The notes under the pieces were generated by a model. That model was not told the DNA's origin and ran no database searches. It saw nothing but the letters and a program-made list of their open reading frames with translations. Below are positions 2,884 through 33,154 of a DNA stretch of 64,000 bases, one piece after another. The DNA is from Cephalothrix simula. Its lineage: Eukaryota; Nemertea; Palaeonemertea; Archinemertea; Cephalotrichidae. The DNA is taken from assembly GCA_035591015.1 (NCBI GenBank), contig JAXIUW010251392.1, positions 1 to 64,000 on the forward strand. The letters run 5' to 3'. How positions within the stretch are numbered: position 1 is the stretch's first letter; each line of letters opens with the position of its first letter. A program made the position numbers and the translations under genes.

Positions 2884-2934
2884 TTAAAATACCCTTTGAA
2901 TAAATATACTTATTCAAACTAAACTCGCACCTAC

Positions 2935-4539: not shown

Positions 4540-4565
4540 TAGGCTTCGGCCGTCTATATGTTTTC

Positions 4566-4638: not shown

Positions 4639-4674
4639 CTTCTGCTTACTTAGTTCGCTAATACATTGATATTT

Positions 4675-16379: not shown

Positions 16380-17102
16380 CTAATCTAGCCAATCTACGGT
16401 TCCAGCCAGAAGTTCATGCTCCGATTGATCATCATGCCTAACCATTAATCCGCCTTGCTGACTAAGGCCTATTACTTGGCCAAGTTTTCGCTCTTGACCA
16501 TCAAAATAGGCAATTTGCCTATACTGATAATCGGCTACTTGCTTCCATTTAGTGAGTATTTGGAGAGTTTCTACAGAATGCATCAGGCTGTACAGCCTGT
16601 TCAGCTGCACCAAAATCTCTTCTAGCAAAAGATTTTTAGCTACTCTATAGCCCGTGATGGCCTCAATAGATGTCATTCTGCCAGCCAAGCTATCCGGAAA
16701 AGCTAACCCCCAACAATTAATGCCTATTCCAATTACCACGCCGCCCAAGCCATCGCTCTCACATAAGATGCCGCACAGTTTACGGCGTTTATAAACAACA
16801 TCATTAGGCCATTTCAAACTAACATCTACCGCACACAGATTGCCGATGGCTTGCTGAATACAATAACCGACCCCCAAGGATAAAAATGTGCTATTAGACC
16901 TCGCCAGTTGCCAGACAACCGAAAACTCCAATGCCCCCTCATGAGAATACCAGCTTCGCCCCAATCGCCCTCTCGCTGCGGTTTGCTGATGGGCTAAAAG
17001 CAACAGCCCGTTGGCTTTCATATACTGCCGATTATTTAGGCAAACAGAATTAGTAGAATTTGCTTGCGGTAGTTGGACAATAGTCCATCTAAGAGATTGC
17101 AT
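16380..17102 (-). CDS. birA: Biotin-[acetyl-CoA-carboxylase] ligase
   Basis: The 240-aa enzyme attaches biotin to carboxylase carrier domains. Seen: NSTNSVCL near residue 15, the biotinyl-AMP loop ARGRLGRSWYS near residue 43, and SLKWPNDVVYKRRKLCGIL near residue 98, with the conserved KWPND. There is no N-terminal helix-turn-helix, so this is the class I form without repressor function. It starts 12 bp after the gspK stop and appears to be the last gene of the secretion operon, which is a matter of position rather than function. Confidence 0.92.
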   Translation of the reverse strand: MQSLRWTIVQLPQANSTNSVCLNNRQYMKANGLLLLAHQQTAARGRLGRSWYSHEGALEFSVVWQLARSNSTFLSLGVGYCIQQAIGNLCAVDVSLKWPNDVVYKRRKLCGILCESDGLGGVVIGIGINCWGLAFPDSLAGRMTSIEAITGYRVAKNLLLEEILVQLNRLYSLMHSVETLQILTKWKQVADYQYRQIAYFDGQERKLGQVIGLSQQGGLMVRHDDQSEHELLAGTVDWLD

Positions 17103-17114
17103 GAGTGAATTAAA

Positions 17115-18248
17115 TTAGTAGACTAGAAAACTTAGCACATCAACTTTTACGCCCGCCCCAGACTGATCACGCTGAATAAACACGGTACTCTCTATAAATG
17201 AAGTGCTTTCAAGATACTTAGCCTCAATGCGAATATAATAATATTGCGACTGCACTATAAACAATTTTTCTATTTGATTACGTTCAGCACGTTCAGTAAG
17301 CACTCCACTAAGCCGCTCTGCAATCTCATTAACGTTGGCAAAATAAGAGCGTGGCAAGTCTTTAGGCATGATAATAGCGAGAATCTCATCAGCCTTATCA
17401 GCAATTTTATTAATACCTTCCTGATCAGCCGTTTCTGCACCAGACAGTAGCTCAAGATTATCAACCTTGCGATCGGTTAAGAAGTTTTTAATTTCTGCAG
17501 CCGAGGCCACATTAATATTTATTTTCTCCGGATAAAATAAATCTGCGCTAGACGCCGGTAGTTCTGAAAAGTTATTTCGCCAAAATCCCCACGGAATCTC
17601 GCTATTTTGTACGGCAGGCACTACTCTTAGTTCACTTAATAACTCTAGTGGCGCATTTTTGTATTCATAATCAATGTCATAGTCACCATTCCGCGGATAT
17701 TCATCACCAAAACTGTTCGCATAGCCAGCGTATGGTGTTTGATTACCATCAACTAAATCAGTTATTTGAGCATATGAATCGGCGATAACCATTTCACTAG
17801 GATTATCATCGCCAAGTGGTCTTTGCTCATTAGGTAACAGGGTAGCCTTGGCCAGAGTATTTTTGAATATATTCCAACGGATATATTCAGTGGCTGAGTT
17901 AGGCTGTATCTTATTCAATGAATTAACGTAGAACATCTGTTCCATCGGCTTAACGCTTACCGATAGAGTGCCACCATTCCAAGGCAACACAGCACTGCCA
18001 AGCTGCTCTTTGATTCTACCTAAAGCGAGGTAAAATAATTTCTCGTTGCGTGATAATCCGTATATAACAGTCCTAAACCCCTGATTGGCTAATCTTTCAC
18101 TATGGTTGTGCTGCTCAAAAGCAGCCAATGCCTGCATGTTCAGCCTAGTCTCAAAGAAGTATTCGCCAATAAATATGGTCAGCACCATAACCATACTTAT
18201 AGCTAATAATAGGGCTATTCCCCTGCGGCGAGAGCGAGGCCTAGGCAT
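17115..18248 (-). CDS. gspK: Type II secretion minor pseudopilin GspK
   Basis: The 377-aa product has a basic leader MPRPRSRRRG followed by the hydrophobic prepilin helix IALLLAISMVMVLTIFIGEY, given in part, and then a large periplasmic domain containing a helix-hairpin-helix-like segment (INVASAAEIKNFL near residue 243), as in GspK. As in other GspK proteins the residue at position 5 after the processing site is not the usual Glu of the major pilin. GspK is thought to cap the pseudopilus tip with GspI and GspJ. It follows gspJ by two bases and precedes birA. Confidence 0.9.
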   Translation of the reverse strand: MPRPRSRRRGIALLLAISMVMVLTIFIGEYFFETRLNMQALAAFEQHNHSERLANQGFRTVIYGLSRNEKLFYLALGRIKEQLGSAVLPWNGGTLSVSVKPMEQMFYVNSLNKIQPNSATEYIRWNIFKNTLAKATLLPNEQRPLGDDNPSEMVIADSYAQITDLVDGNQTPYAGYANSFGDEYPRNGDYDIDYEYKNAPLELLSELRVVPAVQNSEIPWGFWRNNFSELPASSADLFYPEKININVASAAEIKNFLTDRKVDNLELLSGAETADQEGINKIADKADEILAIIMPKDLPRSYFANVNEIAERLSGVLTERAERNQIEKLFIVQSQYYYIRIEAKYLESTSFIESTVFIQRDQSGAGVKVDVLSFLVY

Positions 18249-18250
18249 AA

Positions 18251-18955
18251 TTACAACTGAATATCTATGTAAGAATTAAGATTAACCTCAAGCACGCTTT
18301 CTGAGCTTGATTCATCCGTAGTGCCAGCTCCAATGGTTATTCTAATCGCACGAGGCATTTTTTCTTCGGATGAAGACTGCCAAGTATCTTTCCAACGCTC
18401 AAGGTCATCACCAAAATCTGCTTCTAAATATTCTAGCTTAAACTCGGTTACATTTTCTAGCAGAGTAACTTCATCACCACCAAAATTGATATTATTATCA
18501 ATGTAATAGTCTTCTCTGCGCTTCAACACTCGCTTGCCTTGTTCGCGGCGATCTTGCTCTACCCGATATTCTATCTCGTGCAAATAGGGATTACTGGCCA
18601 GGGGTAAATTAAGACTTTGCGACTTAGAATGAGTATGAAGATTAATACGACTAAATAGCTTGCCCACCGAACTATTTAATGACCCAAACATGCCCGTAGA
18701 TAAACCTTTTGCTGCCAAACTATCTAAATATACTGCGCCACGCAAATCTGTAACTACTATCTTGGCGGCCATCCTGACCTGCAATGCTTGATCTTCAGCA
18801 GTGGTTAGGCTCTTGGTTCCCTCAGAAACCTGAAAAAAAGTAGTGTATAAAACCGTAAGCATTCCTGAAAGTATCACCAAGGCAATGATGACCTCAATCA
18901 AGGTAAAACCCTGACTATAACGCTGACTTCGTAATGATTTACCGAAATTACTCAC
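18251..18955 (-). CDS. gspJ: Type II secretion minor pseudopilin GspJ
   Basis: A 234-aa type IV pilin-like protein with the class III cleavage site QGFTLIEVIIALVILSG at residues 16-32 (Gly before Phe, Glu at +5). The C-terminal part has the long beta-rich domain typical of GspJ, with WKDTWQSSSEEKMPRAIRITI near the end, quoted in part. Together with GspI and GspK it forms the pseudopilus tip. It overlaps gspI by four bases, showing translational coupling. Confidence 0.9.
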   Translation of the reverse strand: MSNFGKSLRSQRYSQGFTLIEVIIALVILSGMLTVLYTTFFQVSEGTKSLTTAEDQALQVRMAAKIVVTDLRGAVYLDSLAAKGLSTGMFGSLNSSVGKLFSRINLHTHSKSQSLNLPLASNPYLHEIEYRVEQDRREQGKRVLKRREDYYIDNNINFGGDEVTLLENVTEFKLEYLEADFGDDLERWKDTWQSSSEEKMPRAIRITIGAGTTDESSSESVLEVNLNSYIDIQL

Positions 18956-19362
18956 AAAGTTAAGCCAATGTAAGTTGATGCCTCATAGCTACGCTCTATT
19001 CCATCTTCTTCCCAAAAAACGGTGTAAACCATCTGCATAACCGTAACACCCGGAATTGGTGATGAGCTTTGTATGCGACGTTCCCAGCGATAGCCCTCTA
19101 GCTGATGACCATTATCAAATACGCCATTCTCTACTCCGATTGTGGGTTTTTTGGCTTTTCTTTCATGATGCAGTAATTCGGCCTGAACATGATTCATCAC
19201 TGTCCACGAAGACTTATTGCGTGTAGTAATAAGAATGTTGGTTCCATAAGAAGATATTAAAGCCACCATGCTCAATGACAATATAACCAACGCCACCAGC
19301 ACTTCAATCATGGTGAAGCCGTAAATTGCTCGCAACGAATTTTTTACAGAATAGGCAGCCAT
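18952..19362 (-). CDS. gspI: Type II secretion minor pseudopilin GspI
   Basis: A 136-aa prepilin-like protein. The processing site is YGFTMIEVLVALVILSLSMV in part, at residues 14-30, with Glu at +5. The size and the single short globular domain with the VFWEEDG strand agree with GspI. It begins right after gspH and overlaps the start of gspJ by four bases. Confidence 0.9.
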   Translation of the reverse strand: MAAYSVKNSLRAIYGFTMIEVLVALVILSLSMVALISSYGTNILITTRNKSSWTVMNHVQAELLHHERKAKKPTIGVENGVFDNGHQLEGYRWERRIQSSSPIPGVTVMQMVYTVFWEEDGIERSYEASTYIGLTL

Positions 19363-19869
19363 TCAAAACTTGTAGTCTTTATATTGCCTTTCATCAAGCA
19401 GCTTGGCACGGCCAGTTAAACCATTGCTGACAATGTACCAGCTGTTATCTCCAATTTTTAATTCAATCATAAACTGGCTGATTAATCCAAGTGGATTGAT
19501 ATTTAGGTATATAGGCCGAATACGTAGTCGGCCATAGAGCTTGCCATCAATTCTGATTGATCTAAGCTCCCAGTCATCAGGCAAAGTGCGCAGAGCAAAC
19601 TGTGTTTCTTCAAGGGCTTCGTACTCATCGGGTTGGATTTCTTTTTCAAACCAATACGATTTGTCGTCAATAGAAAAAACCATACGATAGCTATGCTGCT
19701 CTAAAATTGCCTTCTGCCGTAGCTGGCGTAATGTGCTGACTATATTATTTGTTTCTTTGTCTAAATCATCTTCTAAAAAAGAAAACAGTGCCGGTGCGCT
19801 AATCATCACTGACAAACTGAGGATGACTATTACCACAATCACCTCAATCAGAGTAAAGCCAGATCGCAC
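19363..19869 (-). CDS. gspH: Type II secretion minor pseudopilin GspH
   Basis: A prepilin-like protein with RSGFTLIEVIVVIVILSLSV near its N-terminus. I choose the GTG at 19869, which gives a four-residue leader before the processed Phe and starts 28 bp after the gspG stop. An in-frame ATG at 19926 and the frame limit at 19944 would add a 23-29-residue leader overlapping gspG. The globular part (about 140 aa, with WELRSIRIDGKLYGRLRIRP in part) fits GspH, the pseudopilin joining the tip to the major pilin shaft. Confidence 0.85.
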   Translation of the reverse strand: MRSGFTLIEVIVVIVILSLSVMISAPALFSFLEDDLDKETNNIVSTLRQLRQKAILEQHSYRMVFSIDDKSYWFEKEIQPDEYEALEETQFALRTLPDDWELRSIRIDGKLYGRLRIRPIYLNINPLGLISQFMIELKIGDNSWYIVSNGLTGRAKLLDERQYKDYKF

Positions 19870-19897
19870 AATAATGTGCCGCTCAGATTTTGGCTGC

Positions 19898-20353
19898 CTA
19901 TAAGTCAACACTGTTAATATCTGCATCCAAGTCAGTGCCGCCACTTACGCTATCAGCACCATAGGATATTATCTCTATATTTCTACCATCTGATACAAAC
20001 ACAAACTCATTATTCCAACCATCCACAGGCAGTGTCCGACTATTAATATAAGGCCCCTGCCAACTGTTTGGAATGCGCCCCAATGACGGCTTTTTGACTA
20101 GAGCTTCAAGCCCCTGTTCAGTGGTTGGATATGACCCATTATGCAGACGATATAAATCAAGTGCCGCCTGTAAAGACTGAATCTGAATGCGAGTTGAATC
20201 AGCCTTAGCCTTTTCAGCTTCACCTAGTAGCTGAGTTCCAACTATTCCAGCTATCAAAGCCAAAATAATCAAAACCACCAATATCTCAATAAAGGTGAAG
20301 CCCTGAAACTTCTTAGTCTTAACTTTTCTGTGCAACATATTAGTCATACTCAT
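19898..20353 (-). CDS. gspG: Type II secretion major pseudopilin GspG
   Basis: The 151-aa major pseudopilin builds the periplasmic piston. The processing site is QGFTFIEILVVLIILALIAG in part, with Glu at +5 and Phe instead of Leu at +3. The diagnostic GspG region follows: NGSYPTTEQGLEALVKKP, and the C-terminal GGTDLDADI resembles the calcium-binding loop of the family. It lies directly after gspF with a one-base gap. Confidence 0.95.
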   Translation of the reverse strand: MSMTNMLHRKVKTKKFQGFTFIEILVVLIILALIAGIVGTQLLGEAEKAKADSTRIQIQSLQAALDLYRLHNGSYPTTEQGLEALVKKPSLGRIPNSWQGPYINSRTLPVDGWNNEFVFVSDGRNIEIISYGADSVSGGTDLDADINSVDL

Positions 20354-20354
20354 A

Positions 20355-21557
20355 TTATCTAACCAATTGATTTAATTGAAGCATGGGTAGCAGAATGGAG
20401 ACAACTATAAATCCAACTGCACCACCCATAATAACGATTAGCACCGGCTCTAATAATGATGCCGCACCGTCGGTAAGTGTGGTTACTTCACGCTCATAAC
20501 GCAAAGAAACCTGTTCAAACATAGTGTCTAGGCTGGCCGTTTCTTCGCCAATGGCCACCATCTGACACATATCTTCAGGAAATATTTTTTCATTATGCAT
20601 GGCCTGCGCAAGGTTCATTCCCTGATTAGTCATGTTAAAAATCACTCTATCTAAGGCCGTGATATAGACAGAGTTTTCAAGAACTTTCTGTGCAGTAGCC
20701 AACGCATTCTTCAAATCTATACCGCTTTTAAGCAGTGTGCCCATGGTTTGGCTAAAGCGTTGATTGATAACCTTAATCCGTAAAGACTTCCATAGCGGAA
20801 GTTTAAGCTCAAACTTATCCCAAATAATCTTACCACGTTGGCTGTTCAAAAATTGAATCAGTGCTAACACAAAAACTACTAAAAGTGTCGCTCCTAACCA
20901 CCAGTATCTTATTATAAGGTCGCTAACTACAATTAAAATACGAGTCATCAACGGTAACTGCGCCCCAAAGTTTTCAAACAAAGTGGTTATCTTCGGCACA
21001 ACGTAGGTCATCATAAACATAGTTACCGCAAAGCTAAAGATAACCATAAATACCGGATACACCATCACCGACATAATTTTCGCCTTGAGCTTGCCGGCAT
21101 TATCATAGTATGAAGCTAAGCGTTCCATCACCACATCTAAGGTACCGCTATTCTCTCCAGTTCTAACCAAGCTGGTCAATAATGGCGGAAAGCCCTCTTC
21201 TTCAAGAGTTTCAGCTAAGTTTGCGCCTTCAATAAGTTTGCTGCGTACCGCCAACAGTCGCCCGCTCATAGCAGGGTCTTTGGTTTGCTTAATCATCATA
21301 TCAAAGGCCGTGTCATAAGGAATAGATGCCTGAAGCAGCATAGAGAATTGCTTGCTAAATACGGCCAATTTTTGCACTGTAAGACGCTTACTAAAATTAC
21401 TAGTCAGCTTATGACGTTTCCGCACCTCTTTAATTTGGGTTGGAAAAAGCTTCATCCCCTTAAGAGCATTACGGGCATCACGCTCTGAGCCAGCCTGTAA
21501 TGTTCCCTTCTTGGTCTTGCCGTCGGCATTGTAAGCCCGATAAGAAAATATAGCCAC
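20355..21557 (-). CDS. gspF: Type II secretion inner-membrane platform protein GspF
   Basis: The 400-aa protein carries two repeated T2SSF domains (about residues 65-190 and 265-390) and three membrane segments. Seen: the N-terminal YRAYNADGKTKKGTLQA, FSKQFSMLLQASIPYDTAF, LVRTGENSGTLDVVMERLA and the matching second-domain VAIGEETASLDTMFEQVSLR in part. It transmits ATPase work to the pseudopilus. It lies 13 bp after mltG, so the lyase gene separates it from gspN. Confidence 0.95.
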   Translation of the reverse strand: MAIFSYRAYNADGKTKKGTLQAGSERDARNALKGMKLFPTQIKEVRKRHKLTSNFSKRLTVQKLAVFSKQFSMLLQASIPYDTAFDMMIKQTKDPAMSGRLLAVRSKLIEGANLAETLEEEGFPPLLTSLVRTGENSGTLDVVMERLASYYDNAGKLKAKIMSVMVYPVFMVIFSFAVTMFMMTYVVPKITTLFENFGAQLPLMTRILIVVSDLIIRYWWLGATLLVVFVLALIQFLNSQRGKIIWDKFELKLPLWKSLRIKVINQRFSQTMGTLLKSGIDLKNALATAQKVLENSVYITALDRVIFNMTNQGMNLAQAMHNEKIFPEDMCQMVAIGEETASLDTMFEQVSLRYEREVTTLTDGAASLLEPVLIVIMGGAVGFIVVSILLPMLQLNQLVR

Positions 21558-21570
21558 AAGCTAGGAATAA

Positions 21571-22725
21571 TTAGTTGTTTATATTGCGCTGATACCTATC
21601 TACCGCCTGCTCATGCGTTCTTAGGTCTTCAGAAAAAATATGACTACCATCGCCCTTAGAAACAAAGAACAAATGTGGAATGTTTTTTGGATTAAGAGCC
21701 GCATCAACGCTTTCTACTCCCGGATTAGATATTGGTGTAGGTGGCAGCCCGATCATTGTATAGGTGTTATAGGGAGTTTTGGTACGAAGATCTTTGCGAG
21801 TTATGTTGCCATTAAAGTTTTTAATGCCATAAATAACTGTAGGGTCGCTATCCATACGCATGCCCAGCCGTAAACGATTATGAAATACTCCGGATATATG
21901 GCTTCTTTCAGAAGGCAGGCCAGTTTCTTTCTCTATCATTGAAGCCAAAATAAGTACCTCGTAAGGGCTAAGTTCTAGCCCAGCAGGTCGTTTAAGCAGC
22001 CTGGGCTTAACCCGCTCTAGGTACATGTTAACCATCATTCTAATTAGACTTTCTGCACTGTAGTTTGGGTCAATAAAATAAGTATCCGGAAATAAAAAGC
22101 CCTCTAGGCTGTTCAAATCTTGCCCATCAAGCAAATTCAGTGATTGAATGAAATCTTTATCGGTAGCTAAGCGAACAAACTCTTCTGCGTCACCTACCCC
22201 CAGCTGATTGATTTTTTCAGCTATATCACGAATTGAGTAGCCCTCGGGAATAGTCAGCACAAATATTTTTTTTTCGCCTCCCACCAAGCGATTAAGAACC
22301 ATGTTTGGGCTCTCTGAACCATAAAAAGAGTACTCGCCATACTTAAAAGACAATATATCACCCCTAGCATACGCCAATAACTTAAAGTATGCCGGATTTT
22401 TAAGAGTTTCAGACAGTTGCTGAATAACTCTAGTCCCTCCCGTACCCGGTTTTATGACCAGCGTATAACCTTGCTCAGACTTAAAAGCAGTGCTATTCAA
22501 TCCGTAGATGGAAAGGCTCAAAACAAAAACTATGGCCACCAAAAATGCTGCCGTGGCCATAATCAACCCCCATGATTGAATTAAAGCCCGCCCCGTATAT
22601 CTAGGCAGTTGCATAACCCATGCTGTCCAAGTTATTTCATCGCCTTTCCAGCTTGCCAAGGCCATTTTGGCCAAACTGAGCTGCTTTGAAATACGTTGGA
22701 TGTATTTTTGCCAGAGAGTTTGCAT
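21571..22725 (-). CDS. mltG: Endolytic murein transglycosylase MltG
   Basis: The 384-aa YceG-type protein cuts nascent glycan strands at the inner membrane. A cytoplasmic head of about 55 residues precedes one membrane segment (AAFLVAIVFVLSLSIYGL, about 58-75), followed by a LysM-like part and the YceG domain: ILASMIEKETGLPSERSHIS with the catalytic Glu, then HNRLRLGMRMDSDPTVIYGI in part and YNTYTMIGLPPTPISNPG. It sits inside the secretion operon, 4 bp after gspN and 13 bp before gspF. It may open the wall for the machinery, but that is inference from position. Confidence 0.93.
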   Translation of the reverse strand: MQTLWQKYIQRISKQLSLAKMALASWKGDEITWTAWVMQLPRYTGRALIQSWGLIMATAAFLVAIVFVLSLSIYGLNSTAFKSEQGYTLVIKPGTGGTRVIQQLSETLKNPAYFKLLAYARGDILSFKYGEYSFYGSESPNMVLNRLVGGEKKIFVLTIPEGYSIRDIAEKINQLGVGDAEEFVRLATDKDFIQSLNLLDGQDLNSLEGFLFPDTYFIDPNYSAESLIRMMVNMYLERVKPRLLKRPAGLELSPYEVLILASMIEKETGLPSERSHISGVFHNRLRLGMRMDSDPTVIYGIKNFNGNITRKDLRTKTPYNTYTMIGLPPTPISNPGVESVDAALNPKNIPHLFFVSKGDGSHIFSEDLRTHEQAVDRYQRNINN

Positions 22726-22729
22726 AACT

Positions 22730-23578
22730 CTATAAGTTAGTCCATTGAGGTTGAATGAGGTTGCCTTCTAGCACGCCACTAAGTCGACCATCACGGGCAA
22801 AACCATTGACTATAACTGCTAAATTACCCAGATTACTAATCCACTGCTGTTCTATATTCGCACGAATATCAAGCCTAATTTGGCTCAACAGTATATTCCG
22901 CCAATCCGGATTAAGAGTTCCATTGGCCTGCCCCGCTAAGGTTCCATTCAGGCGTACAGTATTAAGATTAATTGCATTCTCATCGCCACTAATATCAAAC
23001 TCTATCAGCGGAAAATCCATCTGCGGCAAGCTAATGCCCATAACCTGACCATTATCTATACTAAACTGATCAATACTGCCCTGTGCTGTAAAAGGATTAG
23101 CTCGCTGTAACTGCATCAGCTGCTGAAGGCCATCAGTCTGCATTTCAGCCGAAAAATCAAGCCGACCAGAGACCGTAGTTGCTTCTGGCCAAAGCTGAGC
23201 CGGTAAATCAGCTAACTCAAAATCATCGGCTTCAATAAGCACATTACCCGCTCCCCAAGGCGCAGACAGAGATACCGGTGAGCTATCACCCAGTGCTGTG
23301 CTTACAGTCAAGCCCTGCCACAGCTGCCCAATAGAGATTGCCGTATCTTTAAGTTCTAATTGTTTCCCATCGGGCAGAGTAGCCACCACCTGCTTTACAA
23401 CCACCGCCGTTGGCCTAATCAACACCGGCGAGAGTTTTAATTTGATTGATGATTGCTGCCCAGCCATAAACTCTATGTAGTCAGCTACAGAGCGACCGGG
23501 AAAAGTTATACTCAAGCTGATCACGAACACACTAACCATGCTTAAACACAACAATATTATTGTAGTATATTTCTTCAT
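22730..23578 (-). CDS. gspN: Type II secretion protein GspN
   Basis: A 282-aa protein with one N-terminal membrane segment (about 6-26) and a beta-rich periplasmic domain, matching GspN in length and in its place after gspM. Visible blocks are FPGRSVADYIEF near residue 27, SAPWGAGNVLIEADDFEL in the middle and RLNGTLAGQANGTLNPDW near residue 205. It overlaps gspM by four bases. GspN function is poorly known and it is absent from many systems. Confidence 0.82.
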   Translation of the reverse strand: MKKYTTIILLCLSMVSVFVISLSITFPGRSVADYIEFMAGQQSSIKLKLSPVLIRPTAVVVKQVVATLPDGKQLELKDTAISIGQLWQGLTVSTALGDSSPVSLSAPWGAGNVLIEADDFELADLPAQLWPEATTVSGRLDFSAEMQTDGLQQLMQLQRANPFTAQGSIDQFSIDNGQVMGISLPQMDFPLIEFDISGDENAINLNTVRLNGTLAGQANGTLNPDWRNILLSQIRLDIRANIEQQWISNLGNLAVIVNGFARDGRLSGVLEGNLIQPQWTNL

Positions 23579-24060
23579 CTTTTACGCACTAGAACGTCAA
23601 AACTAAGTTGCAGTTCATCTTCAGAATTAAACGCCCTTGATATCTCAAGTTGGGTGAAAATTATTCGTGGACGATTATTTTCTACGTCATAAATAAAGTT
23701 TAAGGCTTGATCTAAGTTCATACTCTCAATAGTGGCTCTAACTACTTCAAAGCCTTCTGTTTGCTCAGTTTCTGGTAGAGTATTCATTCGCAAGCCATCA
23801 GAAAAATTAAACTCGGAAGCCTTATTTTCAAGATAGCCAGATAATGAGCCCGTAAACACGCCTAATTGCTCTTGAATAATTGATTGCCTAGTCTCAACCA
23901 AAGTCACTAAGGTGCTTAGATTACTTTTAGCATTTTGAAGTTGCTGACTAAACTGAGACTCATAGCTATTAATCGTAGACCAGCCGCTATAAATCAAGGC
24001 AATGCCCAACAATAAAATAATGCCTAAAACAAGGTGTTTGCGTTTTAACTCGATGTTCAT
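23575..24060 (-). CDS. gspM: Type II secretion protein GspM
   Basis: A 161-aa bitopic protein with a basic N-terminus (MNIELKRKHL), a membrane segment (VLGIILLLGIALIYSGW), a coiled region and a small ferredoxin-like periplasmic domain. Size, topology and the position between gspL and gspN identify it as GspM, partner of GspL in the inner-membrane platform. It overlaps both neighbours by four bases. Confidence 0.85.
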   Translation of the reverse strand: MNIELKRKHLVLGIILLLGIALIYSGWSTINSYESQFSQQLQNAKSNLSTLVTLVETRQSIIQEQLGVFTGSLSGYLENKASEFNFSDGLRMNTLPETEQTEGFEVVRATIESMNLDQALNFIYDVENNRPRIIFTQLEISRAFNSEDELQLSFDVLVRKR

Positions 24061-25562
24061 ACATCACTTGATTTTTCTGCAATAACAATACGATAGTTTA
24101 TATTATCGCCACTGCGCTGCTGGGTTAGGTTGACTTTGTACTCACTAAAGTAATCTAGGGATTCTAGCTTAGTTTTTAGTGTCTCTAAAAAGTCGTAGCT
24201 GTTGGTAAGCCCCGCTAGAGTTATTATTTGCGAATTTATATCAATACTATCAATTGATAATTCGTCAGAATTCCAAACCGATGACAACTCTTTAAGAGCA
24301 TTTAAGATACGGTAATGATAACTATTATATTCAATACTTTTCGCTGTATCACCATCTTGTAGCTCAAAAATACTCTGCCTAATCTGCTCTATAGCCTGTT
24401 CGGCTGAAACTGCATCGGGCGCAACTCTATTCAATAACTGTGTTAATTGATTATTGGCTACCAGCAGTTCTGCTTGAAGTCGCTTTAACTTGAATACATA
24501 ATCAACTGACCATAGTCCAGCCAACATCACTAATAACGATGCTGTCACCGCTAATGACTTTTGATAACGCCGCAACCCTTGCAGCGAAATAAGGCCAACG
24601 GTTTTGATAAAACTCATCTGGCTGCCCACAAACACATTTTTGTTCATGGTGCTAACTTCTTCAAGCAATGTTAAAGACGAAGTTCGCTTGCTCTCGGCAA
24701 CCTCTAAGCACTCATCGGTAGCATTCCATCTAACATACTGACTAAACCAACCTTTAAGACTAATCCTAACCCCTTCGTTAAGACCTCCCAATTTCATAAA
24801 TTGCTGTAACTCACGAGAAATAATGGCAATTTTATCTTGAACAGATTTATCTACTATTTGTTCTAGCCCAGCTGCTGAGTTACTTTCTTCCAACTCATCG
24901 CCGTAAAAAGAATAGTAATCTTCGGAGGGTTGTTCGGCACTTTTTGATGCTTCAGCCGTTGAAATTAATTCCTGCGGCGGCTGAAACCAATAAGAAAAGC
25001 TCCGCAAGCGCATAACATGGCCGGCCTCAATTAGAGCAAAATAAACCTCATCAACTCCTAAATAGACCACTACCTGCTGCTCAAATGATTGATTATAATG
25101 CGCTTCTTTCAGTAACTGCACCGATGGCGTCGCACGAACACAAGTCAATCCACGCAAGGCAAGCTGTTCTACAACAGAATTAAGCCAGTCTTTGCGCAAG
25201 ATATACGCTAAAACATCTGACTTATTTTTCTTGCCCAAAACCTCGTAGGTATACTGATATTCGTCTACATCGTCAACCAGTTCGTCAGACAACGAGTACT
25301 GTAAGGCCGTAATTATTTTCTTGCGGTTAGAAAAAGGAAAGCTCAGTCTGCGTACTGATAGCAGGCTAGTCGGACAAGCCAAAGTCAAGCGTCCACGCGC
25401 CAGCTTTAGCTCATCCAACCATTGACCTAAGTCTTGGGGCGTCAGCCTCCTAAAGTCGCTATGACAAAATGAATGTCTAGTATTTTCCTCAACATTTACA
25501 ATGTCAAAGAATCTGTTCCCACAATACAGAATATAGCTACAATCACTCATATCAAGCCCCAA
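24057..25562 (-). CDS. gspL: Type II secretion protein GspL
   Basis: The 501-aa protein has a cytoplasmic actin-like (PilM/GspL) domain, a membrane segment near residues 335-352 (SLAVTASLLVMLAGLWSVDY in part) and a periplasmic ferredoxin-like domain of about 140 aa. GspL docks the GspE ATPase to the platform. The cytoplasmic domain contains an acidic insert near residues 205-235. gspL is the first secretion gene in the direction of transcription and starts 61 bp after the CfpA-like gene. gspC, gspD and gspE are not in this window. Confidence 0.88.
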   Translation of the reverse strand: MGLDMSDCSYILYCGNRFFDIVNVEENTRHSFCHSDFRRLTPQDLGQWLDELKLARGRLTLACPTSLLSVRRLSFPFSNRKKIITALQYSLSDELVDDVDEYQYTYEVLGKKNKSDVLAYILRKDWLNSVVEQLALRGLTCVRATPSVQLLKEAHYNQSFEQQVVVYLGVDEVYFALIEAGHVMRLRSFSYWFQPPQELISTAEASKSAEQPSEDYYSFYGDELEESNSAAGLEQIVDKSVQDKIAIISRELQQFMKLGGLNEGVRISLKGWFSQYVRWNATDECLEVAESKRTSSLTLLEEVSTMNKNVFVGSQMSFIKTVGLISLQGLRRYQKSLAVTASLLVMLAGLWSVDYVFKLKRLQAELLVANNQLTQLLNRVAPDAVSAEQAIEQIRQSIFELQDGDTAKSIEYNSYHYRILNALKELSSVWNSDELSIDSIDINSQIITLAGLTNSYDFLETLKTKLESLDYFSEYKVNLTQQRSGDNINYRIVIAEKSSDV

Positions 25563-25623: not shown

Positions 25624-27495
25624 TTATACGCTTTCTGCGTCAACAAGGCTCACCATCTCTGTTTTTGACTCAAACTGACCCTCAATATCCCCACGCTGCG
25701 TAGAACGTCGCCTAGAGAATGAAGCAAAGGCTGTATCTGAAAAACCTTTAGAGATAGAGTAAAGAAACTCATTGAGAACATTAGCCATCTTCATCATGGT
25801 TGTGCTTTTGCGCTTGACACTAGTTATATCAACATCAAGCAACACTCCCGGCTGGAGATGGAACGGATTAATCAACGAATTAAAGCGCACAAACTCGGCT
25901 TCAACAAAATCTATCCGCTCGCTAATTCTATCACGAACATCAGGATAAGTGTTTTCATAAATCGTTTCAACCTTCTTTCTCATCAAAGGAAAGCGTGCTT
26001 TTAAGTCGGCAATTTCGTTTTCCATCGTCGGATGAGATTCAGTAGCTCCTCTAGCTTCTGGAGCAACAAAAGTAACCTCATTCCATTGCCTTTCTTCTAC
26101 GGGTTCTTCCTCAACCTCATTCTTAGAAGAGAAGAATGAAAAACCGCTATCTTGCTTATTTAATAACTGATTGCTCAACACATCCCAGTCTAAAATATCT
26201 TCGCCAGAAACCTTTTCTTGGTAAATTTTGTCTAAAAGGCTCCACAGTTCATCAACAACACGCTTAAACTCAACTAATTGTTGTTGATAGGCTATGCGCA
26301 ACGATCTTACTTTACCCGGACCACAATACTGAAGCTCTAACTTAAAGCGTTCATCAGGTAACCTATTAACCTCTGTATCTTCATATTCACGAATAATTAA
26401 ATGCCTAGCCGCCTTATAGTTTTCAACATGCTGATAGCCCATGCGTGACCAGTCTAATACCGAAGTAATAATGTTAACCGCTGAATTATAGCCACGGTTA
26501 CGAATGTTTTCGTCTTCAATCAGCTGATATATGTTTTCTCTAATACTCAGCGGATCAAACTCTTCCGAAGAAATCTCAGCCTTTAAGCCTTCAATAGCAT
26601 CTAGCAGGCGCTTAGATATGTACGAATAGCGCACAGATTTTTCAGAATCATCATCAGATGTATGTTCATCAAGCGCTTTTATCTTCTCAAAGATTTTCTC
26701 TTCTGGCAGTAATTCTTCTTTGCCTTCGTCTATTAACTCATCATTAATCCGATCAACTTCTTTGCTTATTGCATCTTCTAAGCGTTTAGACATTAACTCT
26801 TTAATCAAAAAAGTCATGGCTTCATGATACGGAAATATCGGTGATATAAGCTCGCTATCAAGAATATTCAATGACAGCTTAACATCCATCACCGCATCGG
26901 GTTTCTTGATATTGTCACGGAAAGAGCACTTGACTACGGCATAGGCATTTTCTCCACGAACAAAAGCTCCAACATCGGTTTTACGACGCAACAGGCTGTT
27001 CGTATGCGTTTCCATATCAGTCACTTCACGCTGCACATGCCCATGCAAGTGACCAAATATATTAACGATTGACTTTTCAACTTCGCCCATATTGAAATTA
27101 TCTGAGCCACCCACTCTATCTAGCAAGTAAGAGATTGGACGAGGAGTATAGCTGTTCAGGCCACGAACTTCCTCAACGTCAATAAGGTCACGAATTTTCT
27201 TGCCCATCTCGTCTTCAACCGTGCTTAGATAGCGGTTGCTCATGTTCTGCATGCCTTGGTTAAAGTAGTCATGCAACTTAGACTTTATGTTGGGCATTAC
27301 ATCAAGACGAAACCCCGCTTCTGGCGGCAACTTGGCATGAATATGATTGAGGATTTTATCGACCTCCTCATCAACAATCACGCGTGCTTCGGCATATTCA
27401 TCACGCGAATGACGATTTATACTGTTCCGCGAGCCTACAGCACTAGGAACTTCAGGGTGAATAATATTTGGCCCATGGGTTATTTCGGTACTCAT
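25624..27495 (-). CDS. CfpA-like cytoplasmic filament protein, paralogue 1
   Basis: A 623-aa soluble, highly charged protein without signal peptide or membrane segment. I believe it is related to CfpA, the cytoplasmic filament protein of treponemes. This rests on remembered resemblance in size and on CfpA lying near a pyruvate phosphate dikinase gene, which is also the case here. Motifs shared with the paralogue at 31307-33154: VGSRNS(I/L)NR near the N-terminus, DEE(V/I)DKI(L/I)NHIH, QNMSNRY, NILDSELISPI near residue 210 and INP(F/Y)H(L/V)QPG near residue 543. The tail contains FASFSRRRSTQRG. A GGAG lies eight bases before ATG 27495, supporting the start. Function here is inferred: a structural filament or scaffold. 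Confidence 0.6.
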   Translation of the reverse strand: MSTEITHGPNIIHPEVPSAVGSRNSINRHSRDEYAEARVIVDEEVDKILNHIHAKLPPEAGFRLDVMPNIKSKLHDYFNQGMQNMSNRYLSTVEDEMGKKIRDLIDVEEVRGLNSYTPRPISYLLDRVGGSDNFNMGEVEKSIVNIFGHLHGHVQREVTDMETHTNSLLRRKTDVGAFVRGENAYAVVKCSFRDNIKKPDAVMDVKLSLNILDSELISPIFPYHEAMTFLIKELMSKRLEDAISKEVDRINDELIDEGKEELLPEEKIFEKIKALDEHTSDDDSEKSVRYSYISKRLLDAIEGLKAEISSEEFDPLSIRENIYQLIEDENIRNRGYNSAVNIITSVLDWSRMGYQHVENYKAARHLIIREYEDTEVNRLPDERFKLELQYCGPGKVRSLRIAYQQQLVEFKRVVDELWSLLDKIYQEKVSGEDILDWDVLSNQLLNKQDSGFSFFSSKNEVEEEPVEERQWNEVTFVAPEARGATESHPTMENEIADLKARFPLMRKKVETIYENTYPDVRDRISERIDFVEAEFVRFNSLINPFHLQPGVLLDVDITSVKRKSTTMMKMANVLNEFLYSISKGFSDTAFASFSRRRSTQRGDIEGQFESKTEMVSLVDAESV

Positions 27496-27576
27496 ATGTA
27501 CGGTCTCCTTTAGTATTAGATGTCTCTACTGAATGACCAACTAATTTGCCTAGCCATAAGGGCTAGATTATTAAAA

Positions 27577-30165
27577 TCACTTCTTGGCATACTTCTGGAT
27601 AGATGCCAGCCTCACTACAGGTGCATCTAGTACACCTGCCACAACATAATCTACATTTAATTTGCTGACCAATTCTGCATTAGCAGGGTCAACGGCCGCC
27701 TTACCGCAAACGCCAATTTCAATATCGGGCCTGATGCACTGCGCATATAAAATTGCTTCACCAACCATCGCACTCATTGACTGCGTTATACCGCCCAACG
27801 GATTTTCTCTTAGTATGTCAAACTGCGTATAAGACGGCAAAAACATATTTGCATCTTCACTTGATATACCGTAGGCGGATTGCGTCAATTTATCAAGCTC
27901 TATCAGTATAAACTGAGTTTGTTTGGCGAAATGACCGGCATGCATAGCTGCTACGGGCAATTCTATAGATGCTCCAATACGAAAATTAATTGACTTATCT
28001 TGGTGTTCTTTAGATATTTCAGAATGAATAGCGTGTATTCCGGCTATATATTCGCCCTCTATGTTCCGCCCATAGGCAATAAAGCGTACTTCGGCATCGC
28101 TCATCACGTTCGGAATTAAAATTCCTAAATCAACTGCCTGCCCTTTTTGCTCTCTTTGTCGATAAGCCGCCTTAAACAGACTACGCACCAGCATTTCTAA
28201 GATATCGTGCTGCGTCACAAACAGTCTGGCTCCACGAACACCCAATACAGGGTTAACATTTTTCAGCAAATTGCATCGTGCCACTATACTTGCCGGAGTT
28301 ATAGAAGAATCCTCCGCCACTAAACTTTCAAAAAGAACCTGTTGCTCCGTGGCATCATGCGGCAAATGCTCCATCAATGACGCACTTAATAACTCAACAT
28401 CAACACGGCGTTCACCGGCCACTAAGAAAACTTGTAATAGTTTCTCTGCTAGTAGATCTTCTACCTTGCGGAAGTATTCCCTGCGTAAATCAGCTGACGG
28501 AATAGCAATTGCTCGGCAAAAAGTCTCATAAATATCGTCATCTAATATCAAATCATCCATAGATAACTTGCCGACCCCAGTCGCTCCATTCAGCAAAGAT
28601 TGTTCAACAAACTTTACAGAACTAGCCGCAGAATATAGATTGAAAGAGGCCTTCTCATCACTCAGCAAGCGCATGAAATCTTCTACACCGTTCAGCGATA
28701 CCGAAGGAAAGATCAGATTAGCTTCGCCAATCCATATTGATGGGTCAGAGTAAGTTGGCACATCAATGGAAATAGTCTCAAACTCTCTGATCTTTTGGCC
28801 GTCAATCTCCATGTAATCAGAGTAAAACTTAATATTTTGATTAACCAAGCAAGGCTTTCTTAAACTGCGTGAAACCACCGGCGCATGCGAGGCATAACCC
28901 CCTACCGAGGCAATACAGCCCACGCCTAGCTCTAAGGCAACCACATCTTCTGCATCGGTATGTGGCATGGCTAAAATCAGCATCGGATGGCGATTACTCA
29001 GCAACAGCTCTTGATGCTTAAGCAATAATGCGTTGGTGCTTAAAGCTACCATGCCCACCGCTGCTCCCGGAGAACCGGCTATTCCGCCACTTACCCTGAC
29101 TTTATCCTCAAGGCTTTTTTGCTCAATCATCGGCTGCAAAAGGTCATTGAGCTGAGCCGGGGGGATAGCCTTAATCATATCAGCTTTATTCAAAACGCCT
29201 TCGCTATGCAGGTCTATTAGCGTTTTTAGTTCTGCCTGAGTAGACTTTGCATCAACACCGCCCTGTTCAATCACCCATATTCGGCCATTTTCAACAACAA
29301 ACTTAACTTCTCTAATGTCTTTGAAATGTCTTTCTAGCAGATCAGCCATTGCCGATAACTCACTAAGATACTGGCTATCAAGTTGTTCAATGGGCATTCC
29401 GGTGTCTTCAGTAATGTCAAACACATTATGCCCAAAGTAACCGCCGACCTTTTTAGAGCCATCAATCGGATCGCGTGATGTTAAACGTCCACTATAAGAG
29501 CTATCACCCGAATTACCGTAGACCATCATCTGTACTAGCAAAGAGCCTTCAATATCTTCATTAATCGGGTCATCGTTGTACTGATTATTAAGTCCCTTGA
29601 GGATAATTATCAGTTGCTCGCAAATATCTTGAGGAAAATCAGGCACAACTTCTGCGCGTAGAGCCTCGCAAATCTCTTTGTAGCTAGAGCCTTTAAGTCG
29701 GTTTTCAACCTCTTCAATCTTTTTGGCATCAACTCCTAAAAAGCGTTTGCCCACACTGTTAATAAAGTATCGGTACTCATGGTAGGCAAAATCTTCACCA
29801 CAAAACTGAGCAAACTCGGCTACGGTAACATCATTAATACCCACCGTATGCACCGAACGGATAGTCCCAATTTGAATTGATGGTGAGACTATAACCTTCA
29901 AAAACATCGGCAATCCACCGCCACCACCGCGGAATGGTTTGCCAGTTAAGGAAGACATGCGCTCTAGTTCGCGCTCTAAGTCTTTAATTTCAAGGTCTTG
30001 AGTTTTATTTTCTAAAACATTACCAGAGTCTATTGCAAAGCCGGGCACAATAGGAATATTGAGCTTTGACAAAAGCAGTATATTCAAAGACCGCATGCCA
30101 AACAGCTCTTTGGCTCTATCTAGCTCAAGTTCAGGAAAGTCGGGACTGGGAATTGGTTGCAACAT
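27577..30165 (-). CDS. Degenerate pyruvate-phosphate-dikinase-like protein
   Basis: The 862-aa protein has the domain order of PPDK/PEP-utilising enzymes. An ATP-grasp-like part (about 1-340) contains LLVQMMVYGNSGDSSYSGRL in part. The swivel domain has GGYASHAPVVSRSLRKPCLV in part, with the phosphorylatable His427. A TIM-barrel-like part contains NPVLGVRGARL near residue 638 and Cys820 (IGVCGKAAVDP). Key sites are altered: the SVRSGA-type nucleotide motif reads KVIVSPS, LCRTEHMF reads KLSMDDLI, IPRAAL reads LPVAAM, GTNDLTQ reads ELDKLTQ and CGEHGGDP reads CGKAAVDP. It is therefore probably not an active dikinase. It may be a phosphocarrier or structural pseudoenzyme. It lies between the CfpA-like and HPr-like genes. 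Confidence 0.75.
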   Translation of the reverse strand: MLQPIPSPDFPELELDRAKELFGMRSLNILLLSKLNIPIVPGFAIDSGNVLENKTQDLEIKDLERELERMSSLTGKPFRGGGGGLPMFLKVIVSPSIQIGTIRSVHTVGINDVTVAEFAQFCGEDFAYHEYRYFINSVGKRFLGVDAKKIEEVENRLKGSSYKEICEALRAEVVPDFPQDICEQLIIILKGLNNQYNDDPINEDIEGSLLVQMMVYGNSGDSSYSGRLTSRDPIDGSKKVGGYFGHNVFDITEDTGMPIEQLDSQYLSELSAMADLLERHFKDIREVKFVVENGRIWVIEQGGVDAKSTQAELKTLIDLHSEGVLNKADMIKAIPPAQLNDLLQPMIEQKSLEDKVRVSGGIAGSPGAAVGMVALSTNALLLKHQELLLSNRHPMLILAMPHTDAEDVVALELGVGCIASVGGYASHAPVVSRSLRKPCLVNQNIKFYSDYMEIDGQKIREFETISIDVPTYSDPSIWIGEANLIFPSVSLNGVEDFMRLLSDEKASFNLYSAASSVKFVEQSLLNGATGVGKLSMDDLILDDDIYETFCRAIAIPSADLRREYFRKVEDLLAEKLLQVFLVAGERRVDVELLSASLMEHLPHDATEQQVLFESLVAEDSSITPASIVARCNLLKNVNPVLGVRGARLFVTQHDILEMLVRSLFKAAYRQREQKGQAVDLGILIPNVMSDAEVRFIAYGRNIEGEYIAGIHAIHSEISKEHQDKSINFRIGASIELPVAAMHAGHFAKQTQFILIELDKLTQSAYGISSEDANMFLPSYTQFDILRENPLGGITQSMSAMVGEAILYAQCIRPDIEIGVCGKAAVDPANAELVSKLNVDYVVAGVLDAPVVRLASIQKYAKK

Positions 30166-30188
30166 ACCATTAATCAGAAAAAAATAAG

Positions 30189-31259
30189 CTAGAACAAAGA
30201 AAGTATCTTGTTGATATCTTTCTTAAGATACTTCTCAAACCTTATGCTAGCACCCTCGTACAAATAACGTTGTAGCTTAGATACTCCCTTTATATCTTCC
30301 CCGGCCACAGAAATCAGAATAACATCACCATTCTTGACCTTGCCCCACTTAAACAGCGCATTTATATTATTTATTTTTTGCCCATCATGAAAAACATGTA
30401 CCTCTAAGTCGGCGTGCGCCGACAGGTAGCTTTCTATGATATTCTTCCACGCCTCAACATTGCCATTATGAAAAAGCTCGTTGGTCACCTGGATACTATA
30501 TTTAGGAGTTATGCGATAATTAGATGAGCGTCGCTTGGGCTCTGGCCGGGGCTTAGCTGCCTCAACAGCTTCTAAGGCCGGCTTAGAAATGGGAGAAACC
30601 GATTCACTAATAACAGGCCGGGCAGGCTTCGCTTCGCCTAATGCATCAAGTATGGATTTGCCCCGAGCAACTGGCCCACGGGCAACGGGGCTAGGACTAG
30701 CAGCACTTGATGGTTGCTCAGCAACAGGCTCCGGAGCAACCTCTAGCGCACCGTAAAACTGATTACTTTCAATAACTGCATCAGACTGAAACATTTCTGC
30801 TATCCGCTCAAGAGCATCTTTTTCCAATCCGCTATCGGCATCGCTCTTAGCCTTAGCATAGACAACCATCATTTCTGCAAGCTGAAACTCAATGTTAGAA
30901 GGCAAAGTGCCTTCGTTCGGGCCAAACACAACCACTCCCAGCTGCGGGTGATGATAGATAAAGACCAGTTCAAACTTATTCCAATTTGCAACCTCGGCCA
31001 GTATACCATGCCAGTTCTTTACATCGGCACCAATATTCAAGGCGATGCTTCTATAGCCCAGCCGTTCTACAACAACGGCATTAATAATTGGGATAACCTG
31101 AGGCTTGGATATGGCCTTATTATCTTGCATTTTGAACAGAATCTCGGCCACTTTTTCGCCCTCACCAATTCTACGAACTATCTCACTAACCACCCTAAAA
31201 TGAGACAAAGACCGATTGAAAGCATCCTTTGTGCTGAAAGCCCAATAAATTCCCGTCAT
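30189..31259 (-). CDS. Unknown protein with C-terminal degenerate HPr-like domain
   Basis: A 356-aa protein. The N-terminal 160 residues form an unrecognised alpha/beta domain (FELVFIYHHPQLGVVVFGPN). A Pro/Ala/Ser-rich linker (about 172-248, with repeated PVARG) follows. Residues about 254-336 have the length and strand-helix pattern of the phosphocarrier HPr: VTNELFHNGNVEAW in place of the HPr active-site segment N..GLHARPA, HDGQKINNINALFKWG in place of DG..VNAKS...L, and KNGDVILISVAGED in place of the G..v.v...GeD strand. A His is kept at about position 264, but the following Arg-Pro is not. The gene starts 47 bp after the CfpA-like paralogue 2 and ends 23 bp before the PPDK-like gene. Confidence 0.55.
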   Translation of the reverse strand: MTGIYWAFSTKDAFNRSLSHFRVVSEIVRRIGEGEKVAEILFKMQDNKAISKPQVIPIINAVVVERLGYRSIALNIGADVKNWHGILAEVANWNKFELVFIYHHPQLGVVVFGPNEGTLPSNIEFQLAEMMVVYAKAKSDADSGLEKDALERIAEMFQSDAVIESNQFYGALEVAPEPVAEQPSSAASPSPVARGPVARGKSILDALGEAKPARPVISESVSPISKPALEAVEAAKPRPEPKRRSSNYRITPKYSIQVTNELFHNGNVEAWKNIIESYLSAHADLEVHVFHDGQKINNINALFKWGKVKNGDVILISVAGEDIKGVSKLQRYLYEGASIRFEKYLKKDINKILSLF

Positions 31260-31306
31260 CTAGCAACTCGCTGGCAATTCTTTACATTTCACCCAAGAAC
31301 ACCCTA

Positions 31307-33154
31307 CTACTCAGCACTCTGAGCAAATGACATTAAGTCTGAAACCACATGAGAATGCCTCTGTGGCTTATCAACTTCATCACTTTTATAAGCCCTAGAA
31401 GCCAAAGATAGAAACTCATCTAACACATTATTCATGCCATTTATTGTCACCCGCAAGCGCTTAATACTGGTTATTTTAACGCTCATAACCAGCCCTGGTT
31501 GAACATGGTACGGATTTATTTCATCAACAAATCTAATTACTTCGGCCTCTAAGAAATTCAAGCGTCCCTCCAAAAGCATTCTCTCATCAGGAAAAGATTT
31601 CAAATACGCTCTTTCAATTTTTTTTCTAAGAAGAGCCAGCCTGCGCCTAAACTCAATAAAGGTACTTTCATAGCTTTGATTCATCTCTTCTAAAGAGTTC
31701 AGCTCTCGCTGCACAAAGACAATCTCGTTCCAGGCTCTTTCTTCCTCTTCTATCTCATCTTCTGCGGCACCGCGACCAAAGAAACCGCCCGCAGCCACAG
31801 GCTTCTTAGAGGTTACAACTTCTTCAAAGATATCATCCCAGTCTTTGTCGCCACGACTTTCTTTTTGCTCAATATAAATCTTGTCAAGCAAATTCCATAA
31901 TCGCGTTATTTCGTGCCTGAATTCACTAAGTTGAGCACTGTAAGCAACTTTGGCAGCCGCAATGTCTTCACTTGTGTAATAGCTCAACCCTAGCTCAAAA
32001 CACTCATCCGGAAGCTGAGTTTTATCCATCTGCTCATACTCACGAATAGTTAATTTCCTGTGTCCTTTAAGGTTTTCAATGTGCTGAAAGCTCATTTTGC
32101 TACGATCAAGAATGCCCGTCAAAGAATTAACCGCCGTATTCCAGCCCATGGTGCGCATGCCTTCATCTTCAAGCATCTTAAACAATGAGTCACGTGTACC
32201 TAAAAGATCTTTATCAACGTCATCGCTCAATTCTCCAGTCAATCCCTCAAAAGCATCTAAAAAGCGCTTTGGCAAAACTTTATAACGGACTGCATTTTCG
32301 CTAGTGTCGTCATCGGTGTAATTTTCAATGGCCTTAACTTTCTCAAACAACTGCTCGGCCGGCGAAAGCTCCGGACGGTCATCGGCACGAAGCTGGGCAT
32401 TTATTTCATCAATCTCGCTGTTTATCCAGCGGAAAACCTGATCAGAAACAACATTCTTCACCAAGTGTTCATAAATCAAGCGCTGGCTGATGATCGGCGA
32501 TATAAGCTCGGACTCAAGAATATTTATCGCCAAGTTTACATCACTAACTTTGTCAGGCAGTCGGTGGTTGTCACGAATGGAGCATCTGACCACCGAGTAG
32601 GCATTAGAGCCTCGGATAAAGCCTCCAATATCATCACGTTGCAAAAGCCGCGCATTAGTCTTCAGCTCAAAGTCTGCGGTTTCTCGGTGCACATGACCTT
32701 GCAAGTGACCAGAGATATTCACCACAGATTTTTCAACTTCTTCGGTATTAAATAGGCCGGCACCGCCAATCTGATTAAGCAGGCTCGCTATTTCACGCGG
32801 AGTATAGCGGTTGAGCGAATTTTGCTCTTCTTTGTCAACAAGGTCGCGTATCTTCTTCGCCAATTCATCTTCAGCAGTAACCATGTAGCGGTTAGACATA
32901 TTCTGCAAAGATTGATTGAAATAGCTGTGCAGATGGGACTTTATATTACCCATCACTTTTAAGTCTTGGGCGGCCTCAGGTGGCAACTTAGAATGAATAT
33001 GATTGATTATCTTATCTATTTCTTCATCTATGATAACCTCGCCTTCGGCATATTCATCTCTGCTGTCCCTATTAAGGCTATTCCGTGAACCAACGGCACT
33101 AGCCTCTTCTGGGTGAATAAAGTTAGGTCCTTTACGAATTTCGTCTCTCGCCAT
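31307..33154 (-). CDS. CfpA-like cytoplasmic filament protein, paralogue 2
   Basis: A 615-aa soluble, acidic protein, paralogous to the one at 25624-27495 over its full length. Shared blocks include NRDSRDEYAE, IDEEIDKIINHIHSKLPPEA in part, QNMSNRYMVTAEDELAKKIR, IVNI.GHL.GHV, NILESELISPI, YEQMDKTQLPDE and INPYHVQPGLVMSVKITSIK in part. The C-terminus differs: it lacks the SFSRRRST motif of paralogue 1. Assignment to CfpA is by resemblance from memory. It is the first gene of the long minus-strand run that ends at birA, preceded by a 900-bp AT-rich region that should hold the promoter. Confidence 0.6.
   Translation of the reverse strand: MARDEIRKGPNFIHPEEASAVGSRNSLNRDSRDEYAEGEVIIDEEIDKIINHIHSKLPPEAAQDLKVMGNIKSHLHSYFNQSLQNMSNRYMVTAEDELAKKIRDLVDKEEQNSLNRYTPREIASLLNQIGGAGLFNTEEVEKSVVNISGHLQGHVHRETADFELKTNARLLQRDDIGGFIRGSNAYSVVRCSIRDNHRLPDKVSDVNLAINILESELISPIISQRLIYEHLVKNVVSDQVFRWINSEIDEINAQLRADDRPELSPAEQLFEKVKAIENYTDDDTSENAVRYKVLPKRFLDAFEGLTGELSDDVDKDLLGTRDSLFKMLEDEGMRTMGWNTAVNSLTGILDRSKMSFQHIENLKGHRKLTIREYEQMDKTQLPDECFELGLSYYTSEDIAAAKVAYSAQLSEFRHEITRLWNLLDKIYIEQKESRGDKDWDDIFEEVVTSKKPVAAGGFFGRGAAEDEIEEEERAWNEIVFVQRELNSLEEMNQSYESTFIEFRRRLALLRKKIERAYLKSFPDERMLLEGRLNFLEAEVIRFVDEINPYHVQPGLVMSVKITSIKRLRVTINGMNNVLDEFLSLASRAYKSDEVDKPQRHSHVVSDLMSFAQSAE

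Follow-up and report, generated by a model that had tools for sequence, protein, structure and literature searches.

A conserved gene block linking the filament protein CfpA to an HPr-like protein and a pyruvate phosphate dikinase paralogue that appears to have lost its nucleotide site

CfpA is an abundant filament protein of spirochaetes and, as known for Treponema, builds a cytoplasmic filament at the inner membrane; to our knowledge, its partners are not established. The Treponema filament locus (TP0748-0746; TDE0842-0844) comprises three genes—cfpA, a gene for an HPr-like protein, and one resembling pyruvate phosphate dikinase (PPDK). The closest described biochemical systems are PPDK itself and the Enzyme I and HPr pair of the phosphoenolpyruvate (PEP)-dependent phosphotransferase system (PTS), in its sugar and PTS-Ntr forms, where a PEP barrel and a swivel-histidine module likewise work beside an HPr-fold protein with a histidine at the active-site place. 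Here we analyse a 64,000-nucleotide stretch (“the window”; assembly GCA_035591015.1, filed under Cephalothrix simula, contig JAXIUW010251392.1, positions 1 to 64,000), in which the same three genes occur in the same order. Unlike the PTS, this pair has a filament gene attached to it. The window departs from the Treponema locus in three respects: another cfpA closes the block at its 3' end, the PPDK paralogue has a broken PEP site, and a run of type II secretion (gsp) genes follows downstream. Recomputing the open reading frames reproduced the original prediction of four consecutive minus-strand genes from 33154 to 25624, in the order CfpA, HPr-like, PPDK-like, CfpA, with gaps of 47, 23, and 81 bp and a further 61 bp before gspL:

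31307..33154, minus strand: CfpA-up, 615 aa, first gene of the block (NF040882.1, 603 bits; tree)
30189..31259, minus strand: HPr-like protein, 356 aa (PF27497 on relatives; AlphaFold2; Foldseek and VIA-align to HPr; alignments)
30468..30470, minus strand: codon of His264, at the place of HPr His15 (codon read; alignment; register inferred from aligned ranges)
27577..30165, minus strand: PPDK-like protein, 862 aa (ATP-grasp, swivel, and PEP-barrel regions present)
28885..28887, minus strand: codon of His427, at the place of the swivel phosphohistidine (codon read; alignment)
25624..27495, minus strand: CfpA-down, 623 aa, last gene of the block (NF040882.1, 768 bits; tblastn identities; tree)

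Judged by gene order and co-occurrence, the combination of filament gene and putative phosphocarrier genes is a conserved module. We scanned the neighbourhoods of the HPr-like gene in the best 80 of its 344 relatives, 77 titled as spirochaetes and three as ‘bacterium’ (L008, L012, and L034). CfpA lay just upstream in 75 of these loci; 77 had the PPDK-like gene downstream, 70 of them adjacent and seven at a distance of 5.5-6.3 kb. All three genes were contiguous in 66, and homologues thus do keep company, as expected under the original prediction. Gene by gene, relatives of the four block members were present in 77, 73, 73, and 70 of the loci. Two exceptions, L012 and L013, hold more than 6 kb of upstream sequence without CfpA, and in their genomes, as in that of L036, CfpA sits on a separate contig. 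Across 198 Spirochaetota genomes, 85 carried CfpA and 84 the HPr-like gene—83 with both, two with CfpA only, one with the HPr-like gene only, and 112 with neither (Fisher p ~1.7e-52, with relatedness not corrected for). Among viral contigs, 60 pattern matches included no relative.

Some neighbours of the module recur. In L038 (10921-16267; L045 and L009 are alike), an insert between the HPr-like and PPDK-like genes encodes one protein weakly matching DUF6602, one with a VWA domain, one of 670-800 aa (whose relative in L064 had no Pfam match), and, by reading, an apparent GAF-GGDEF cyclase. Overall, 25 to 36 of the 80 loci contain families like the first three, most often upstream of CfpA. Beside cfpA in L152, a plus-strand gene at 8215-8886 has a VWA-like DIFLMIDKSRSM motif and is similar to the neighbouring VWA gene seen elsewhere in spirochaete loci; by its place, we presume that it may be TP0750.

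The PPDK-like protein shares whole-length homology and the swivel histidine with PPDK, but falls below the family cut-off and belongs to a clade of its own. It matched the PPDK model TIGR01828 over its full length with 371 bits, and the CfpA-linked spirochaete paralogues, at about 600 to 730 bits, also stayed below the cut-off of 843. Its score on the Enzyme I model TIGR01417 (42.6 bits, best stretch residues 632-773) was far under that family's cut-off of 341.7; unlike Enzyme I, the putative donor here derives from PPDK. In a tree, the paralogues formed a separate clade of 141 sequences (support 0.953), and 24 true PPDKs grouped on their own.

We scored conservation at five ATP places (K22, R92, D321, E323, and R337) and seven PEP places (R561, R617, D620, E745, N768, D769, and C831), with roles and numbering as in the PPDK literature; the swivel phosphohistidine is His455 in the numbering of Clostridium symbiosum PPDK. 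The 195 paralogue rows comprised 71 plus 15 (TRE) spirochaete, 54 database, and 55 SAR324-type sequences, the first three sets possibly sharing proteins. Of 77 PPDK-like proteins found, 71 were used, those truncated at a contig end or no longer than 800 aa being left out. Also left out were 4 of 58 SAR324-type matches of 800 aa or less, 2 of 56 database matches of 780 aa or less, and one true PPDK without a recovered frame (25 reduced to 24). The K22 place, gapped in 4 of the 15 TRE rows and one SAR324-type row, was scored there as not kept.

All 24 true PPDKs keep all twelve places. Every paralogue row, by comparison with PPDK, keeps none or one of the five ATP places: none of the 195 has the PPDK residue at K22, R92, E323, or R337 (a few rows being gapped there), and 189 differ from it at D321, so that the nucleotide site appears to have been lost in every paralogue examined. 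Replacements recur—arginine at K22, phenylalanine or tyrosine at Q281 (141 of 141 paralogues), and lysine or arginine at E323, in nearly all paralogues—as might be expected of an old ATP site with a new job. The swivel histidine is present in all 195 rows. The PEP half is kept in full in every spirochaete paralogue (71 of 71 and 15 of 15, together 86/86) and in 53 of 54 database ones; one of the 55 SAR324-type proteins keeps all seven places, and the other 54 keep five or fewer. The window protein has R, I, E, K, and G at the ATP places, a five-residue site that is lost, and retains E745 and C831 only of the seven PEP places, along with H427. Since P0295, which branches off first in the SAR324-type clade, retains the PEP site without the ATP site, loss of the ATP half would have preceded that of the PEP half in the lineage of the window. 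Among spirochaete genomes searched, 18 of 20 and 12 of 15 also encode, at another place, a true PPDK above the family cut-off; G177, which we take to be T. denticola ATCC 35405, carries one in addition to the paralogue beside CfpA.

The HPr-like protein begins with a helical segment, followed by a first domain (about residues 69-161) that, by one structure-match row, may have the HPr fold, a low-confidence linker, and a second predicted HPr-fold domain (about 250-342) with the motif NELFHNGNVEAWK. Its AlphaFold2 model had a mean pLDDT of 85, and the best structural matches in Foldseek and VIA-align were HPr, pointing to an HPr fold and agreeing with the HPr-like domain originally proposed. Profiles in Pfam and NCBIfam do not see this likeness: PF27497 matches relatives of the protein, and PF00381 (HPr) was not among its Pfam matches at E up to 10. 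When the two domains were aligned by hhalign with 14 spirochaete HPrs (5 of 19 HPr loci, missed by the motif filter, were left out), the probabilities were 12% and 10%, and 0.3% with each other; a PDB profile search with the HPr-like alignment found no HPr. Because hhalign gave no sequence support, the HPr assignment rests on the predicted fold. Alignment positions 37-175 gave a weak NusA match in the PDB (E 0.004), although the predicted fold there matched HPr. His264 falls at the place of HPr His15, in a register inferred from aligned ranges, and is histidine in 87 of 87 aligned rows. In the active site of HPr, His15 is followed by R17 and P18; the latter places hold glycine and asparagine in all 87 rows. 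The protein thus differs from the HPr of the PTS in its greater length, its lack of a PF00381 match, and its lack of R17 and P18.

Both flanking proteins exceed the 500-bit cut-off of the NCBIfam model NF040882.1 (cfpA_ASD), bearing out the doubled cfpA of the original prediction, in which CfpA-up was CfpA2 and CfpA-down CfpA1. By tblastn identities, CfpA-down is closer than CfpA-up to spirochaete CfpA. In a tree, CfpA-up was one of 60 sequences forming a clade, and CfpA-down fell in a clade of 63 together with a third CfpA of the same genome (support 1.0 each). The node uniting these clades had a support of 0.459, which makes it likely, rather than proven, that cfpA was duplicated early within this lineage. 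The third CfpA is on contig C1 of genome G000, with no HPr-like or PPDK-like gene within its 1.5 kb flanks. The CfpA monomer model was poor (pLDDT 68; best Foldseek E 0.38).

Close relatives with a source name are mostly from the SAR324 cluster, Candidatus Lambdaproteobacteria, or ‘Deltaproteobacteria’. The genome of the window, G000 (8.6 Mb in 580 contigs), carries pyruvate kinase and one Enzyme I (G000:C20:26192-27892, 825 aa frame, 412 bits against a cut-off of 342). It has no PPDK above the family cut-off and no PF00381 HPr at E 0.1, though a small HPr gene may be missing from an assembly in so many contigs; PF00381 HPr was present in 15 of 15 spirochaete genomes searched. Linkage of the three genes in SAR324-type contigs is indicated indirectly, by equal contig sizes among 70, 49, and 37 matches that we chose from 120 listed per protein: 28 sizes were common to CfpA and HPr-like matches and 16 to all three proteins, and one size, 27394, was common to CfpA matches of both types (P0019 and P0117), P0185, and P0264.

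Published data on Treponema bear on the module. The original prediction had named a treponeme block of cfpA, a hypothetical gene, and a PPDK gene; this arrangement is seen in the T. pallidum-type genome G074, and Table 5 of PMC3914990 lists TDE0842, TDE0843, and TDE0844 as repressed together. Table 2 of PMC3931704 lists 16 major proteins of the T. denticola envelope fraction, with TDE0844 as band 1 and CfpA as band 3; the paper attributes CfpA in that fraction to membrane anchoring and, in the passages concerned, does not discuss the dikinase. For T. pallidum, PMC10013896 reports single-nucleotide variants of TP0746 at nt 810772 (A869T) and 811414 (P655S), and both land on exactly those codons and residues in G074, which therefore follows T. 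pallidum Nichols coordinates. The gene is:

L152 (G074:C1:808500-818000), 2172-4877, minus strand: TP0746, CfpA-linked paralogue without the ATP site, annotated as PPDK in T. pallidum

The simplest reading of the spirochaete proteins is an Enzyme I/HPr-like relay, because the parts left there would suffice for transfer from PEP to histidine beside an HPr-fold protein with its own histidine. The paralogue would take the phosphate of PEP onto its swivel histidine and, since ATP should no longer bind, hand it to the histidine of the HPr-like protein; the former nucleotide domain may serve as the docking place, and the phosphorylated HPr-like protein could either report the PEP level to the filament or alter the filament. 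Such a relay would be equivalent to PTS Enzyme I plus HPr, rebuilt from PPDK. That it reports to CfpA we infer from the linkage, co-occurrence, co-regulation, and co-fractionation described above. We give about even credence to this reading, in which the conserved module of filament and phosphocarrier genes is a relay from PEP in spirochaetes. A point that weighs against a new job for the old ATP site is that the ATP-grasp is the least conserved domain of the spirochaete paralogues (0.41, against 0.62 for this domain in SAR324-type ones). The PPDK-like and HPr-like proteins might instead build or anchor a CfpA ribbon without any catalysis, as the shared place of TDE0844 and CfpA among the major envelope-fraction proteins would allow. 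We consider such a structural co-polymer unlikely, given that the PEP site is complete in 86/86 spirochaete proteins, that the swivel histidine is never missing, and that the PEP barrel is the best conserved spirochaete domain (0.65 versus 0.59 and 0.41). The case for it is stronger in the SAR324-type clade, because there the PEP barrel is the least conserved domain (0.56), and nearly all members have a decayed PEP site. The original prediction had spoken of a dead PTS-like pair: this fits the window protein insofar as the ATP site and five of seven PEP residues are gone, but H427 and H264 are kept, and the pair does not look dead in spirochaetes because the PEP site is intact there. With its PEP site broken, an Enzyme I present, and no PF00381 HPr detected, the window's lineage would have its HPr-like protein fed by another donor, or the pair, both histidines having stayed, would act as a scaffold. 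More specifically, the HPr-like protein could there be the HPr of the ordinary Enzyme I, merely held on the filament by the broken PPDK-like protein. Retention of His264 after loss of the PEP site would suit such a role; the lack of R17, the presence of PF00381 HPr in all the spirochaete genomes searched, and the chance that an HPr gene is hidden by the fragmented assembly make it rather improbable.

A further alternative is that the paralogue, in line with its T. pallidum annotation, still functions as a PPDK whose nucleotide site has been remodelled. The full-length homology and the intact PEP half of spirochaetes favour this, as do the facts that PMC10013896 treats TP0746 as the enzyme—most likely yielding pyruvate and ATP, in the passages available—and that in G074 the CfpA-linked paralogue is the only PPDK-family match at E 1e-40 and no pyruvate kinase was found, although one is present in nine other genomes searched. 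Yet the four universally changed or gapped ATP places and D321 in 189 rows, places that bind ATP in PPDK, the uniform aromatic residue at Q281, and the true PPDK also carried by most spirochaetes searched make continued PPDK activity highly unlikely. TP0746 itself has R, V, E, R, and P at the ATP places and intact PEP places, and its sequence argues against the ATP-forming half of the assigned reaction. Because a paralogue without the ATP site is the sole strong PPDK match and no pyruvate kinase was found, its published role looks doubtful, and the pattern of residues suggests that it is misannotated. In the open-access literature, as far as its texts were available, we found no paper that handles the three genes as one functional unit or casts doubt on TP0746.

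The original prediction had also tied the block functionally to the type II secretion genes that follow it, as one operon:

16380..25562, minus strand: neighbouring gsp-type run, gspL to birA-like (open reading frames; Pfam for ten genes)

The run reads gspL, gspM-like, an unnamed gene (N place), mltG/yceG, gspF, gspG, two pilin-like genes, gspJ, an unnamed gene (K place), and a birA-like gene, whose name is that of the original prediction. In a Pfam scan of ten of its proteins, L (by 0.2 bits), F, G, J, and YceG/MltG matched their own models, M fell below the cut-off, two others carried the pilin methylation motif only, and those at 22730 and 17115 had no match. As to a single transcript from 33154 to birA, no terminator-like site lies on the minus strand in any of the four gaps, so that read-through into the run is possible, and the 61 bp gap before gspL folds no better than shuffles (z -0.08); promoter-like sites occur at chance level (22 versus 19.4, sd 4.4), one of them just ahead of the block (33201-33172) and two within the start of gspL (25555-25528 and 25507-25479). 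The functional tie was not supported, resting on shared strand and adjacency in one genome: BLAST matches (E 1e-4) to the gsp-type open reading frames of the window were found in 2 of the 80 loci (L031 and L037), against 70-77 for the block genes, and the run mixes functions, since mltG/yceG lies within it. Absence of gsp genes from the loci is weak evidence because gsp proteins diverge fast and flanks are incomplete in many loci (57 of 80 hold 5 kb upstream and 52 of 80 hold 6 kb downstream). On balance, we think this tie very unlikely. Downstream of the birA-like gene, two related-looking minus-strand proteins of 306 and 314 aa (13178-14098 and 14809-15753) read like outer-membrane beta-barrels, with a hydrophobic start and a QYGF end.

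These observations name two candidate partners of CfpA and carry a chemical prediction, on phosphorylation, and they put in question the annotation of TP0746, on which accounts of T. pallidum energy metabolism draw. The SAR324-type proteins would form an evolutionary series in which the ATP site was lost first and the PEP site later, the histidines being kept. More broadly, and tentatively, since we think it possible rather than probable, the module may be a third kind of PEP-driven histidine phosphorelay beside the sugar PTS and PTS-Ntr, derived from PPDK without its ATP half, placed on a cytoskeletal filament, and coupling glycolytic state to the behaviour of that filament in bacteria with CfpA; the syphilis bacterium, on this view, would be without an ATP-yielding PEP-to-pyruvate enzyme of known kind.

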